Source: Opitutaceae bacterium (GTDB lineage: Bacteria > Verrucomicrobiota > Verrucomicrobiia > Opitutales > Opitutaceae). Taken from it: 64,000 nucleotides of DNA. Positions 23,616-28,566 of the stretch are shown here, in pieces. Made by a program: the position numbers and the translations under genes. Each line of letters starts with the position of its first letter. Positions within the stretch are counted from its first letter, which is position 1. The DNA is taken from positions 1 to 64,000 of the forward strand of contig JAUYAK010000093.1 in assembly GCA_030693515.1 (NCBI GenBank), given 5' to 3'. The notes beneath the pieces were generated by a model, which searched no databases, was not told where the DNA came from, and was given only the letters and a program-made list of their open reading frames with translations.

Positions 23616-24083
23616 ATGCCATCCATTCTCGATCTCTCGGTCCGACTCAAAACCAAGGATGTCGCCGTCCCGCGTCAACCTGCCCGGGTCCTCGTCGTGG
23701 ACGACGACCCGTTGATACTCCAGTTGGAGGCGACCATCCTTCGACGCGCCGGGCACCACGTCGACATCGCGAAGGACGGCGAGTGCGGCTGGCAGGCGCT
23801 GCTCGCCGCCCGTTACGATCTGCTCGTGACAGACTGCCAGATGCCGCGCATGTCCGGCCTTGATCTCGTGCTTCAGCTTCGCGCCGCCCAAATGACGCTC
23901 CCGGTCATCATGGCCTCAGGCAGCCTGGAGTCGTTGAATATCGAAACGCTCACCCATGCGCCTTCGCGCATCCATGCGTTTGTGCGAAAGCCGTTCACCA
24001 TCTCACAGCTCCTCGGCGCGGTGAAAAGCGCCCTTGAGCCCAGTTCGGACGGCGACCGGTCACCGCAAATGGCTTTGGGCTGA
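23616..24083 (+). CDS. CheY-like response regulator
   Basis: This 155-aa protein has a receiver from about residue 23 (VLVVDDDPLILQ), acceptor Asp in LLVTDCQMPRMSG, and the conserved Lys in FVRKPFTI. A 22-residue leader precedes it. The start MPSILDL was chosen over an upstream extension because the extension has no domain features. It is transcribed away from the kinase block and stands alone, 220 bp before alaS. The partner kinase is unknown. No output domain is present. Confidence 0.85.
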   Translation: MPSILDLSVRLKTKDVAVPRQPARVLVVDDDPLILQLEATILRRAGHHVDIAKDGECGWQALLAARYDLLVTDCQMPRMSGLDLVLQLRAAQMTLPVIMASGSLESLNIETLTHAPSRIHAFVRKPFTISQLLGAVKSALEPSSDGDRSPQMALG

Positions 24084-24303
24084 GCCCCGCTCAGCATCGC
24101 AAGCCCAACCCGCGCCGCGGGCAAATGCAGGGACGGCCGCGCGCCGCCGTAGCTCTTTGTGCGCACGGCCAATCGCGACAGGTCGCAGGCTTGCCGCCTC
24201 TGGTCGTGATGAGTGACGGAGGGCGCAGACGCGCGCCTTGGCGCTGAAAATATCCTTTGCGCCCGCTACCCCGGGCTCTTTGCTCTCCCTTCACTTTTCA
24301 CGC

Positions 24304-27300
24304 ATGACCTCCGCCGAGATCCGTCAGTCGTTCCTCGATTTCTTCGCCCAGCAGGGCCACACGATCACGCCGTCGTCGTCGCTTCTGCCGGACTCGCCCG
24401 GGCTGCTGTTCACCAACGCCGGCATGAACCAGTTCGTGCCCATCTTCCTCGGCGACCGCGCGCCTGATGTCTCAAAATGGGCCGGCGTCCGCCCGTCGAA
24501 GGACACTCGCGCCGCCGACACCCAGAAATGTATCCGCGCCGGCGGCAAGCACAACGACCTCGAGGATGTCGGCTTCGACACCTATCACCACACGCTCTTC
24601 GAGATGCTCGGCAACTGGTCCTTCGGCGACTACTTCAAGAAGGAGTCCATCAACTGGGGCTGGGAGCTCATCACCAAAGTCTGGGGCATCCCGCCGAAGC
24701 GCCTTTTCGCGACCGTCTATTCGCCCGACAAATCGAAGAACGATCCGTCGGAGTTTGACCAGGAAGCCTACGACATCTGGGCGAAGATTTTCACTGCCGC
24801 CGGCCTCGACCCCGCGGTCCACATCGTCAACGGCAACAAGAAGGACAATTTCTGGATGATGGGCGACACCGGCCCCTGCGGCCCGTGCTCGGAAATCCAC
24901 TTCAACCTGCTCCCGAGCGACGAGGAATCGGCGGGAAGGAAACTGGTGAACGCCAGTTCGCCGCGCTGCATCGAGATTTGGAACCACGTCTTCATCCAGT
25001 TCAACGCGAACGCCGACGGCACCTTCGCCCCGCTCGCCGCCAAGCACGTGGACACCGGCATGGGCTTCGAGCGCGTCGCGGGCATCCATGCGACGACCGG
25101 CGGCTTCAAGAATTTCGACAAGGATCCGTCGAACTACGCCGCCGATGTCTTCGCCCCGCTCTTCGCGAAAATCACCGCGCTCTCCGGCAAGGCCTACGCC
25201 GCCACCGTCCCCACGAAGCGCGAAGGCCTGACGGATCAGGAAAACATCGACATCGCCTTCCGCGTGCTCGCCGACCACGCGCGCTGCGTGAGCTGCGCGA
25301 TCGCCGACGGCATTCTCCCGTCGAACGAGGGCCGAAACTACGTCATCCGCCGCATCCTCCGCCGCGGGATTCTCTATGGGAAGAAACTCGGCTTGCCGAC
25401 GGGCTTCTTCGAGCAACTCGTCGGCCCCGTCGTGGAATCACTCGGCGGCGTCTTCCCGGAATTGAAGCAGCGTGAGGACATCGTGCGGCGGGCGATTCGG
25501 AGTGAGGAGGAGAGCTTTGGGCGGACGCTGGATCGCGGGCTGGCCGTCTTTCAGGCGGAGGTCGCGAAGTTCCCGGGGAGCGCACGCGTCCCGCGTGCCG
25601 CATCCGGCGTCTCGCCGGATGCTCCTCAGGATGTCCGCTACGCGAAGCGACGTCTCCCGCACTTCGAGCGCCCATGGGGAAAATACCACCTCACGTTCAC
25701 CACCCACGAACGCCGCGCCCTGTCACCCGCCGCACGCCAAATCGTCCTCGACAGTCTCGTGCATGGTCACACCCAAGGCCGCTACCACCTCTTCGCCGCG
25801 TGCGTGATGCCCGACCACGTCCATGCGCTGATCGAGCCGCAGCCGAAGGGAAAAACCGACGACGGCACCTCGCTGTTCCCCACACTCACCGAGCTTCTGC
25901 ACTCGATCAAATCCTTCACCGCGCACGAAATTAACAAGGCGGGCGGTGCCACTGGCCCCGTCTGGGAGAAGGAATCTTTCGACCGCCTGATTCGCGGAGA
26001 GAACGATCTCGTGGAGAAATTTCGCTACATCGTGGACAATCCGCGCGCCGACAAACTCGTCGGGCCGGACGAAGATTATCCGTTTCTGTGGACGCCACCG
26101 GAAGGGCTTCGGCGGGACGCCGAAGCCAGCCCGCGGGACGCGGGCGCTCCCCGGGAAATTTCGGGCGCCGTCGCTTTTCAACTCTACGACACCTACGGCT
26201 TCCCCCTCGACATGACACAGCTCCTCGCCACCGAGCGCGGGCTCACCGTCGATGCCGCCGGGTTCGAGGCTGAGATGGAAAAGCAACGCGAGCGCGGCCG
26301 TGCTTCCCAGAAGAAGACCGTCCTCGTCGCCGCCACCGAGGGCGACGACACCGCGCCCGTCGTGGCCACGACCTTCACGGGCTACACGCTCCCGACCGAG
26401 CCGGTGACGGCGACGGTCATCGACGTGATTTCGAACTACGATGCGTCGTTCGTGGTGTTCGACACCACGCCGTTCTACGCCGAGATGGGCGGCCAGGCCG
26501 GCGACACCGGCACCGCCGTCATCGCCGGGATTCCCTACGCCATCGTCGACACGATCAAGGACAAGGCCGGCCGCACGCTGCACAAACTCGGCGTGCCCGC
26601 CGGCGAGATGCCCTCCGCCCCGCCGTTCTCCCGCGGCGCGCCTGCCGTGCTCGCGCTCGACCTCGCGCGCCGCCGCGCCATCTCACGCCACCACAGCGCC
26701 GCGCATTTGATTCATTGGGCGCTGCGCAAAGTGCTCGGCACGCACGTCCGCCAAGCGGGCACCTCGAAGACCGCCGACCGGATGCGTTTCGATTTCTCGC
26801 ACTTCGAAGCTGCCACGCCCGCGCAGCTCCTCGAGGTCGAGCGCCTCGTGAACGAAAAAGTGATCGATAACGCGCGCGTCGAAAGCTACGAGACCGAGTT
26901 CGACCAGAAGCCCGAGGGCACCCTCGCCTTCTTCGGCGACAAATACGGGAAAATCGTCCGCGTCGTCGATATCGGCGGCTACAGCCGCGAACTCTGCGGC
27001 GGCACGCACGTCACCACGACCGGAGAAATCGGCCTCATCAAGGTCGTCGCCGAAATGGCCATCGCCGCCGGCACGCGCCGCATCGAGGCCGTCGCCGGCC
27101 AGCCCGCGTTTGATTTCGTCGCCACGAAGGAAGCCGCCCTCGCCGCCCTCAGCGCCCACCTCGGCGGAGGCGTGAGCGATGTGGTGAAGAAGCTCGAGAC
27201 CCTCCTCGCCCAGCAGAAGGAAACCGAGAAACAGTTGAAGGCCTTTCAGCAGAAAGCCCTCGCCGGCCTCGCCGAGGAACTCGCCGCCAAGGCCACGGAA

Positions 27301-27600
27301 CGCGACGGCCTCAAATTCGTTTCCGGAGTCGTCAGCGTCTCCGACCAGGAAGCGCTGCGCAGCCTGGGCTCGCAAGTCGCCGCCAAGCTCGGCGAAGGCG
27401 TGGTGCAGCTCGGCGCCGCGCTCGGCGACAAGGCCAGCCTCGTCGCCTTCTGCACGCCCGCCGCGGTGAAGGCCGGCCACCAAGCCGGAAAAATCATCCA
27501 GACGCTCAGCGCCGCCATCGGCGGCAAGGGCGGCGGCAAGCCCGACTTCGCGATGGGCGGCGGCAAGGACATCGCCAGGCTGGCCGAGGTGCTGCGCTAA
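24304..27600 (+). CDS. alaS: Alanyl-tRNA synthetase with in-frame RAYT insertion
   Basis: The 1098-aa product is AlaRS, which charges tRNA-Ala, with about 196 extra residues. The catalytic domain starts at MTSAEIRQSFLDFF. After TLDRGLAVFQAEVAK (about residue 422) the sequence changes to a complete REP-associated transposase domain (about 423-618), then returns to ISGAVAFQLYDTYGFPLDMT. The editing domain has the HHSAAH and CGGTH zinc-binding motifs. The C-Ala domain ends in GGGKDIARLAEVL. The insertion lies in a length-variable loop before the LYDTYGFP motif of the tRNA-recognition domain. There is no stop or frame change. Removing it leaves 902 aa, close to the usual size. ATG at 24304 is chosen by homology. 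No second alaS is seen in the window. Confidence 0.96.
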   Translation: MTSAEIRQSFLDFFAQQGHTITPSSSLLPDSPGLLFTNAGMNQFVPIFLGDRAPDVSKWAGVRPSKDTRAADTQKCIRAGGKHNDLEDVGFDTYHHTLFEMLGNWSFGDYFKKESINWGWELITKVWGIPPKRLFATVYSPDKSKNDPSEFDQEAYDIWAKIFTAAGLDPAVHIVNGNKKDNFWMMGDTGPCGPCSEIHFNLLPSDEESAGRKLVNASSPRCIEIWNHVFIQFNANADGTFAPLAAKHVDTGMGFERVAGIHATTGGFKNFDKDPSNYAADVFAPLFAKITALSGKAYAATVPTKREGLTDQENIDIAFRVLADHARCVSCAIADGILPSNEGRNYVIRRILRRGILYGKKLGLPTGFFEQLVGPVVESLGGVFPELKQREDIVRRAIRSEEESFGRTLDRGLAVFQAEVAKFPGSARVPRAASGVSPDAPQDVRYAKRRLPHFERPWGKYHLTFTTHERRALSPAARQIVLDSLVHGHTQGRYHLFAACVMPDHVHALIEPQPKGKTDDGTSLFPTLTELLHSIKSFTAHEINKAGGATGPVWEKESFDRLIRGENDLVEKFRYIVDNPRADKLVGPDEDYPFLWTPPEGLRRDAEASPRDAGAPREISGAVAFQLYDTYGFPLDMTQLLATERGLTVDAAGFEAEMEKQRERGRASQKKTVLVAATEGDDTAPVVATTFTGYTLPTEPVTATVIDVISNYDASFVVFDTTPFYAEMGGQAGDTGTAVIAGIPYAIVDTIKDKAGRTLHKLGVPAGEMPSAPPFSRGAPAVLALDLARRRAISRHHSAAHLIHWALRKVLGTHVRQAGTSKTADRMRFDFSHFEAATPAQLLEVERLVNEKVIDNARVESYETEFDQKPEGTLAFFGDKYGKIVRVVDIGGYSRELCGGTHVTTTGEIGLIKVVAEMAIAAGTRRIEAVAGQPAFDFVATKEAALAALSAHLGGGVSDVVKKLETLLAQQKETEKQLKAFQQKALAGLAEELAAKATERDGLKFVSGVVSVSDQEALRSLGSQVAAKLGEGVVQLGAALGDKASLVAFCTPAAVKAGHQAGKIIQTLSAAIGGKGGGKPDFAMGGGKDIARLAEVLR
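25570..25622 (+). repeat. Left REP end of the RAYT element
   Basis: This 53-nt repeat starts TTCCCGGGGAGC and folds into two hairpins: GCACGCG/CGCGTGC (25582-25588/25592-25598) and a 10-bp stem at 25600-25609/25613-25622, each with a 3-nt loop. The right end is its inverted partner. Read in the alaS frame it gives GSARVPRA. Confidence 0.85.
26105..26157 (-). repeat. Right REP end of the RAYT element
   Basis: This inverted partner of the left end has the same two hairpins: 26105-26114/26118-26127 and 26129-26135/26139-26145. Where it differs from the left end within a stem, the opposite base changes too (A-T becomes C-G, C-G becomes G-C or T-A). Four such compensated pairs are seen. Confidence 0.85.
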
Positions 27601-27609
27601 TCCCCCCAA

Positions 27610-27641
27610 GCCAAGTGGCATTAGTTCAACTGCCACTTGGC
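27610..27641. promoter_or_regulatory. Inverted repeat before the toxin-antitoxin pair
   Basis: GCCAAGTGGCA and TGCCACTTGGC are perfect 11-bp arms around a 10-nt loop, 9 bp after the alaS stop and 44 bp before the antitoxin ATG. It could be the operator bound by the Xre-type antitoxin, as such antitoxins usually repress their own promoter. It could also end alaS transcription, but no T-run follows. Confidence 0.5.
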
Positions 27642-27685
27642 ACATACGGCTTGCCGCAACCGGCGGGCCCGGCCACACTGGCGGC

Positions 27686-28102
27686 ATGAAGAAGAAGCCC
27701 GCCGCCAAGCCCCAGCCCTACGCGATGGGCGACCACAAGGAGAACGCCCTCCGGGTCGAAGAAGGCGTGCCGGTGACGGAACTCGTCGCCTTCGGGCGCG
27801 AGACCGGTTTCACCGTCGATGAGCTGGCGAAGCTCGTGCAAATCCCGCCGCGCACCTATGCCCGGCGCGTCGCCAGCAAGGCCCGCCTGAGCCTGCCCGA
27901 GGGCGAACGCGCCGTGCGGGTGATGCGCCTCTACGATCGCGCCAAGGAACTCTTCGGCACGCACGACAACACCCGCGAATGGCTCAACGCGGCGATTCCG
28001 GCCCTGGGTGGGCGCACACCGCTGTCGTTCGCCCGCACGGAGCAAGGTGCGCGCGAGGTCGAGAATCTCATCGGCCGCATCGAGCACGGCATCCCGTGGT
28101 AG
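27686..28102 (+). CDS. Xre/MbcA/ParS-type antitoxin
   Basis: This 138-aa protein has a helix-turn-helix-like region (about 40-75, VDELAKLVQIPPRTYARR) and the C-terminal DUF2384 region that ends in the toxin-binding tail (VENLIGRIEHGIPW). This is the usual antitoxin of RES-domain toxins. It likely binds DNA, represses the operon and blocks the toxin active site with its C-terminal end. The next gene, a RES toxin, starts within its last codons. The inverted repeat at 27610-27641 is a candidate binding site. Confidence 0.9.
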   Translation: MKKKPAAKPQPYAMGDHKENALRVEEGVPVTELVAFGRETGFTVDELAKLVQIPPRTYARRVASKARLSLPEGERAVRVMRLYDRAKELFGTHDNTREWLNAAIPALGGRTPLSFARTEQGAREVENLIGRIEHGIPW

Positions 28103-28566
28103 CCCCGCTCCGGCTCTGGCGACTGTGCCGCAGCACCTACGCGGCCGAGGCGTTTTCCGGCCGGGGGGCCTACCTCCTGGGCGGGCGCTGGAGTCCGCCC
28201 GGTGCCGGCGTCGTCTATTGCGCCGACTCGCGTTCGCTCGCGGCGATGGAGGTGCTCGTGCATCACATCGGGACCGGCGTTTTCCGGGATTCGCTCTGGG
28301 TGCAGATCGCCGCGGACGTGCCGCCCGATCTGGTCGAGATTCCCGCGCGCGTGCCGGGGGCGTGGCGTGAACCGTCCCCGGTCGCCAGCGTGCAGGCTTT
28401 CGGCGCGGCGTGGTGCAAGGAACAACGCTCCGTCGCGTTGCGCGTGCCCAGCTCTGTCGTGCTCGGCGAGTTCAACTACCTGCTCAATCCCGCGCATCCC
28501 GATTTCAAGCGCGTGAAACTCGGCCAACCCGAGCCCTTCAACTTCGATCCGCGGCTCGGCAAATGA
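28096..28566 (+). CDS. RES-domain toxin
   Basis: This 156-aa RES-family protein shows the family residues: Arg and Trp in GGRWSPPG, Glu in LAAMEVLVH and Ser in VPSSVV, with the closing NYLLNPAHPDF block. Studied members break down NAD+ and stop growth. The start is GTG at 28096, which overlaps the antitoxin stop (GTGGTAG); no ATG suits and the frame begins APLRLWR, the usual start of the fold. The order antitoxin-toxin with overlap fits a type II toxin-antitoxin system. Confidence 0.9.
   Translation: MVAPLRLWRLCRSTYAAEAFSGRGAYLLGGRWSPPGAGVVYCADSRSLAAMEVLVHHIGTGVFRDSLWVQIAADVPPDLVEIPARVPGAWREPSPVASVQAFGAAWCKEQRSVALRVPSSVVLGEFNYLLNPAHPDFKRVKLGQPEPFNFDPRLGK

Follow-up and report, generated by a model that had tools for sequence, protein, structure and literature searches.

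Inteins are inserted in frame in conserved genes, are expressed via the host gene, recur at the same sites and have no start or stop of their own, whereas IS200/IS605 transposases are encoded by an ORF with its own start and stop and IStrons make use of RNA splicing. In eukaryotes, transposase domains occur as parts of host proteins, in fusions that arise through splicing or exon capture. The RAYT/REPtron transposases (TnpA-REP) are presented, in the available parts of two papers, as genes that occur in single copy and are inherited vertically, neither copying themselves nor showing signs of self-mobility (PMC8049555, PMC2817692). Mobile palindromes that keep the reading frame of the conserved genes they lie in have also been described, both as intragenic REPs (PMC3733652) and as Rickettsia palindromic elements (RPE; PMC10969869); as far as the available text of these papers goes, the inserts are short and carry no transposase (REP dimers of 20-30 residues, clusters of 43 to 82; RPE of about 150 bp). 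The same text of PMC3733652 reports that intragenic GTAG repeats are most abundant in Opitutus terrae and mentions RAYTs with terminal repeats, and it describes in-frame REPs but no in-frame whole RAYT. In the open-licence literature we recognised no description of a gene that contains an entire RAYT in its reading frame, in agreement with an earlier note on this DNA that knew of no such case; a survey of the family discarded "a few unexpectedly long proteins" as fusions or errors (PMC6006769, available in part).

We analysed a stretch of 64,000 nucleotides (the window) from an Opitutaceae bacterium, in which alaS is interrupted by a RAYT flanked by REPs. We consider it probable that this is a RAYT/REP mobile cassette without translation signals of its own, which lives as a translated internal domain in the linkers of housekeeping enzymes. 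The features of the locus are as follows.

24304..27600, forward strand: alaS, alanyl-tRNA synthetase (AlaRS), 1098 codons including the in-frame insert; the sole alaS found in the genome
25570..26157, forward strand: RAYT/REP cassette insert, 588 nt, with a core GGGG...CCCC at 25575-26152 (578 nt)
25567..25617, forward strand: left terminal inverted repeat (REP with hairpins), read through in frame
25660..26085, forward strand: RAYT (HUH/Y1) domain, matched by NF047646
25816..25824, forward strand: HUH motif (His-Val-His of CVMPDHVH)
26026..26028, forward strand: catalytic Tyr codon (EKFRYI), from the family alignment with 4er8
26110..26160, forward strand: right terminal inverted repeat (REP with hairpins), read through in frame

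The alaS frame is open without a stop through the 588-nt block, and the TIGR00344 alaS profile matches its product in two stretches (795 bits), with AlaRS on both flanks of the transposase. AlaRS is an essential enzyme, and the source genome (6.65 Mb in 130 contigs, completeness 100%, contamination 1.1%) yielded, with a full-length query, one alaS and four RAYT-only matches, and no second alaS. The profiles and this single match bear out the earlier note, which had read the RAYT as lying in frame inside alaS, a gene it called usually single-copy. From the left repeat to the transposase core of the cassette there is no in-frame ATG, GTG or TTG; the earliest start-type codons in the block (GTG 25759, GTG 25804 and ATG 25807) all fall within the transposase domain, so that the further claim of a stop-free block with no usual start for the transposase alone agrees with our reading of the frame. 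Hence the window RAYT is not a stand-alone gene with its own start and stop, but part of alaS. Downstream of alaS (27686-28566), two small ORFs look like candidates for an Xre/DUF2384 antitoxin and a RES-domain toxin.

The insertion site is located after the helix that follows EEESFGRTL and before LYDTYGFP, and in the comparison with human AlaRS chains the two matched parts of the window AlaRS meet at this site. Where the motifs can be read in RAYT-free relatives, EEESFGRTL and LYDTYGFP lie 32 to 99 residues apart, most commonly 32, which makes this a length-tolerant stretch. The RAYT-free sequences L006-L033 differ before LYDTYGFP not only in length but also in sequence, and some of them could be worn remnants of earlier insertions.

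The inserted block belongs to the RAYT family: NF047646 (REP_Tyr_transpos) matches residues 453-594, scoring 82.6 bits with the block alone (cut-off 80) and 78.5 bits with the whole protein, and PF01797 (Y1_Tnp) gives a further match. The IS200 profile NF033573 (transpos_IS200) reaches 26 bits with the block, against a cut-off of 55; thus the element shares the Y1 HUH fold and the hairpin ends of IS200/IS605 elements and IStrons, but it falls below the NCBIfam IS200 cut-off and lacks a start and stop of its own. The HUH motif and the Y1 tyrosine, already pointed out in the earlier note, were recognised in the window and aligned with 4er8 through the family profile. The predicted model of the RAYT domain alone (58 aligned sequences) had a pLDDT of 90.3 and a pTM of 0.85, and the closest PDB chain by Foldseek (E 4e-8) was 4er8, in which a RAYT binds a REP hairpin, with IS200-type transposases next; a sequence-profile search again returned 4er8 as the top PDB match (E 2e-6). 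The NF047646 domain, the HUH and Tyr residues and the closest PDB structure are thus those of the RAYT/REPtron system.

In the model of the whole chimera, block means were 68-92 for residues 461-600 and below 50 for the REP-encoded residues 424-455 and 600-616; the overall pTM was only 0.39, too weak for any reading of how the domains pack. The REP-encoded stretches would accordingly act as disordered linkers on either side of an autonomously folded HUH/Y1 domain. These predicted linkers on both sides would also suit proteolysis, in which the chimera is cut within them to give a free RAYT and an AlaRS made of two associated fragments; we regard this as quite unlikely, although it is compatible with most of the explanation that we prefer, the uncut internal domain.

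The earlier note had left two outcomes, a chimeric AlaRS or removal of the block. Nothing that we found suggests removal, and a chimera, which would be synthesised as one polypeptide of 1098 residues and would retain AlaRS activity, is the best reading. Removal before translation by RNA splicing, or afterwards by intein-like splicing, deserved attention since inteins likewise lie in frame in conserved genes without their own start or stop, a lifestyle similar to that of the RAYT cassette. However, no Rfam family matched 24000-28000 at E<=1, the window alaS had no Hint splicing domain or other intein family among its Pfam and NCBIfam matches at E<=0.001, and the ends of the element are REP hairpins; in the lack of anything indicating that the cassette leaves the protein it differs from inteins, and with no support from Rfam or from splicing families we rejected intron or intein removal as very improbable.

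The terminal repeats claimed for the block were recovered as 51-nt arms at 25567-25617 and 26110-26160, which are 84% complementary and contain an internal hairpin each. The block is indeed 588 nt long and free of stops, as a length of "exactly 196 codons" requires, but its outermost ends rest only on the inverted repeat, within which GGGG...CCCC spans 578 nt. Of the non-autonomous copies in other parts of the genome, one (C118) agrees with the 588-nt reading, TTCCCGGGG...CCCCGGGAA, at both ends and others agree at one end, while two differ there. Its removal would leave 30 residues (226 minus 196) between EEESFGRTL and LYDTYGFP, compared to the commonest 32 in RAYT-free relatives, and therefore the empty site is not fixed to the base. 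The flanks lean toward TYYG|element|CRRA; target and element end are indistinguishable in this pattern, and a target-site rule was dropped.

Searching with the window RAYT in 84,980 genomes, one per species, we took the best 80 of 227 matches, which gave 79 distinct loci. By record title these belong to Verrucomicrobiota lineages, except for one "Kiritimatiellaeota" (L069) and one "bacterium" (L103), and the nearest named matches among them are from Opitutia and Ereboglobus. The hosts of the 80 elements (79 loci and the window) were called by blastp of both element sides against five E. coli K-12 proteins, on which the identity of RecG, MetH, ThrRS and PriA rests: AlaRS accounts for 29, RecG for 27, MetH for 13, ThrRS for 5 and PriA for 1, with 5 outside any of them. 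Therefore 75/80 elements map to one of the five proteins, and 68/80 have both host sides in one open frame; the seven one-sided elements are bounded by a contig end (L062, L072, L105, L126, L129) or by a nearby stop (L075 and L084, the latter with a stop 22 codons downstream), and in the RecG copies L085 and L087 the host ends early. The sites are few. In E. coli numbering they lie at about 387/390 (24 elements) and 272/280 (5) of AlaRS, at about 356/373 of RecG (27), at about 334/341 (9) and 932/935 (4) of MetH and at about 318/327 of ThrRS (5); the host-site label of L075 was assigned by hand.

Samples of the phylum were searched with a profile built from 18 such RAYTs, 17 of them in genes, and hence leaning to close kin; some of the sampled genomes are identical to, or near copies of, loci of the species scan. 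At E<=1e-35, 7 of 288 genomes matched (the source genome included), all in AlaRS (5) or RecG (2). At E<=1e-22 there were 18 matches in 16 of 387 genomes, 12 of them in frames of at least 730 aa (AlaRS 6, RecG 2, MetH 2, a DrmD-like helicase 1, IspG 1); the frames of the other 6 measured 213-438 aa. Because the loci are the best 80 of 227, seeded by the window RAYT, and the profile comes from 18 such copies, the host-gene shares are not an unbiased census. A one-off insertion is ruled out by the 79 related loci and the phylum sample, and with the element recurring across many genomes, and in several housekeeping genes besides alaS, the finding is larger than the earlier note could see.

An artefact of assembly or binning, or a dead alaS, would be another account of the locus. 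The carriers are mostly metagenome assemblies, and the assembly of the isolate Ereboglobus sp. PH5-10 is interrupted at the left REP, where its contigs run into junk sequence; against this account stand 79 loci from many separate assemblies with the same arrangement, several in long contigs and one in a contig of 2.7 Mb (L102), the sole alaS found in a complete genome, and Ka/Ks values of 0.01-0.45 for the host halves of the pairs tested. We hold this account to be extremely improbable; neither ground for refutation named in the earlier note, an assembly artefact or a second intact alaS, has held up. The interrupted REP of Ereboglobus sp. PH5-10 (L032 3541-3692 and L057 30-180) belongs to the alaS element and shows G/C-run junk at both contig ends, and strong hairpins may block sequencing there. 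Seven assemblies contain two or three elements (L065/L131, L090/L107/L134, L074/L118, L066/L113, L098/L120, L081/L136 and L100/L112), placed in different housekeeping genes or with one in a gene and one outside; in one of these assemblies the RAYTs in ThrRS (L065) and AlaRS (L131) are 71% identical.

The anatomy seen in the window is shared across the set. Comparison of the 240 nt before with the 300 nt after the core gave inverted repeats at E<0.01 in 76/80 elements, typically ending in GGGGAGCGC or GGGTAGCGC, and a perfect stem of at least 5 bp, of widely varying sequence, adjoins 94 of 123 collected ends, where shuffles would give 3.9. A fuzzy pattern located the ends of 76 elements, a few of them visibly in the wrong place (e.g., L062, L076, L117). 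Between left end and core, 73/76 have no ATG and 47/76 no ATG, GTG or TTG, and a stop in the RAYT frame was found in none of the 76. Since the host frame is open, a stop-free frame is independent evidence only in the 5 elements outside recognised genes, and these likewise have no start before the core and no stop inside. The motif patterns recover HUH in 75/80 and Tyr in 71/80; 14/80 fail a pattern, and on inspection by eye these are near variants, except that L074 has lost HUH and L082, L119 and L132 have lost Tyr.

REPINs of about 102 nt with ends matching those of the cassette occur five times in the source genome, with one more cut by a contig end. An exact pattern, GGGGAGCG...CGCTCCCC, matched 7 of 54 genomes, the source genome included; on reading, REP structures were found in the source genome (G000; 5), in G028 (1), which also has a RAYT in alaS, in G027 (2) and in G031 (1 of 2 matches); G020, G025 and G035 have what look like chance matches. 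REPINs thus co-occurred with a RAYT in alaS in 2/2 genomes versus 2/52 of the others (Fisher P=0.004, genomes treated as independent; among the 52, alaS was not found whole in G005, G017, G020, G021 and G052, and RAYT absence elsewhere was checked in seven). A second, overlapping set gave REPINs in 3/8 RAYT genomes versus 0/18 others (P=0.02, with one chance-like match in G208 left out), that is, the exact pattern did not find them in 5 of the 8 RAYT-bearing genomes. G027 and G031 have no RAYT of the window type at E<=1e-20, and their REPs therefore disfavour a strict RAYT-REPIN link. For the RecG element of G214 a search for ends gave no result, and we therefore do not pair its RAYT with the REPINs of that genome. 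Flanking inverted REPs (GGGGAG or GGGTAG with hairpins) and REPINs with matching ends are again as in the RAYT/REPtron system, and by domain, motifs, ends and REPINs the window block is a RAYT/REP element and not a stand-alone gene. It differs from that system in that the present lineage has no start or stop of its own, lies in frame in housekeeping genes and has repeatedly changed host gene; unlike the short palindromes of intragenic REPs and RPE, the insert carries a whole transposase as a translated domain.

We then compared the histories of RAYT and host. The RAYT tree of 80 rows requires 20 changes of host-site label, where the minimum possible is 7 and the shuffled mean is 45.0 (0/200 shuffles as low); these are quick trees with many open forks, and on the starred branches alone at least 4 changes are needed for AlaRS 387, at least 3 for AlaRS 272 and at least 2 each for RecG, MetH 334 and ThrRS. 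The host-site label is thus well kept within clades yet repeatedly changed. In the tree of the AlaRS N-terminal part, the window AlaRS falls among members of its genus that lack the RAYT, the nearest being L007 at 91.6% identity (SH-aLRT of the forks 80-89). The nearest relatives of the window RAYT are L059 and L060, and their AlaRS N-terminal part is only 78-79% identical to that of the window. One gain explains the window alaS; otherwise about 13 losses, by an eye count with several forks moderately supported, would be needed. GC3 is 0.76 in the window RAYT versus 0.88 in both alaS halves, which, with the RAYT-free genus-mates, suggests a recent gain. Simple vertical inheritance is disfavoured by the label changes and the AlaRS tree.

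The RAYT core is under purifying selection. Of 20 chosen pairs, 15 yielded a Ka/Ks for the core, of 0.03-0.21 (four had saturated Ks and one was identical), a rough estimate because Ks often exceeded 1; for the host parts of these pairs Ka/Ks was 0.01-0.45. Between L098 and L133, at one MetH site, the RAYT Ks is 0.49 versus 1.2-1.3 for the host, as if the cassette had arrived or been swapped after the host split.

This selection on the RAYT, the clustering of host labels on its tree and the description of RAYTs, in the available parts of one paper, as single-copy, vertically inherited and domesticated (PMC8049555) would fit an ancient domesticated fusion, in which AlaRS, RecG, MetH and ThrRS made a few acquisitions that were then inherited vertically with many losses, the domain being immobile and serving the host, for example by processing single-stranded DNA in connection with proteins of translation or repair. 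We consider such a history rather unlikely: it has to face the losses set against a single gain in the window lineage, the changes forced by the starred branches at AlaRS 387 and 272, inverted repeats and end hairpins that persist while their stem sequences vary, the low RAYT Ks of L098/L133, and the same habit in RAYTs of other types in other genes.

For the mobile cassette, we propose that left REP, transposase and right REP form one complete unit, with a single frame open from end to end, which would persist in frame within flexible linkers of conserved multidomain enzymes and be translated together with the host enzyme, here AlaRS, as an additional domain inside it. Its place in an essential gene would provide steady expression, and only precise or in-frame loss would be tolerated. 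The domain, having retained its catalytic residues, probably still acts on REP hairpins, which may have moved the cassette to the same few sites and spread the non-autonomous REPINs; the route to a site may have been transposition or recombination between alleles. On balance, we favour the broader statement that this autonomous cassette exists only as an internal enzyme domain, re-entering the same linker sites of AlaRS, RecG, MetH and ThrRS across the phylum without splicing and acting on REP DNA while fused.

RAYTs have been regarded as domesticated single-copy genes of unknown function, and the large lineage seen here shows a different life. From its seat in essential genes the transposase would gain expression and protection against imprecise deletion, and the host enzyme would come to carry a nuclease domain. 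As a transposase domain within a host protein, it would be a prokaryotic counterpart of the eukaryotic host-transposase fusions and a non-splicing counterpart of inteins. The tolerance of an essential enzyme for a 196-residue insert, and a possible tie of RAYT activity to translation or repair proteins, become testable. Annotation may also be affected, as long RAYT proteins resemble fusions or errors.

The general RAYT family matched 50 of 115 phylum genomes at E<=1e-15. Ordinary RAYTs prevail in the phylum: by hand count, about 13 of the 150 general-family matches listed have frames of at least 600 aa, and three of these are AlaRS. Other hosts were met as well. The RAYT is enclosed by host domains in HypF, in a B12-binding radical SAM protein (L195) and in a CCA-type nucleotidyltransferase; in a second radical SAM protein (L194) and in BREX PglX (L196) the host was seen on one side in the stretch examined, and in a creatininase the RAYT lies on one side. 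Four further loci (L190, L191, L192 and L198) had no match to the five E. coli proteins, with the RAYT near the frame end in three, and in L157 and L159 the RAYT lies in MetH near E. coli residue 1050. Several RAYTs of L193-L197 and L199-L201, a group that includes those in the DrmD-like helicase and in IspG, and the RAYTs of the MetH loci L157 and L159, look by eye like another RAYT type than that of the window. In the source genome itself, the RAYTs L037, L038, L041 and L043 are each flanked by their own, different pair of inverted repeats, and several REPtron families seem to coexist there.
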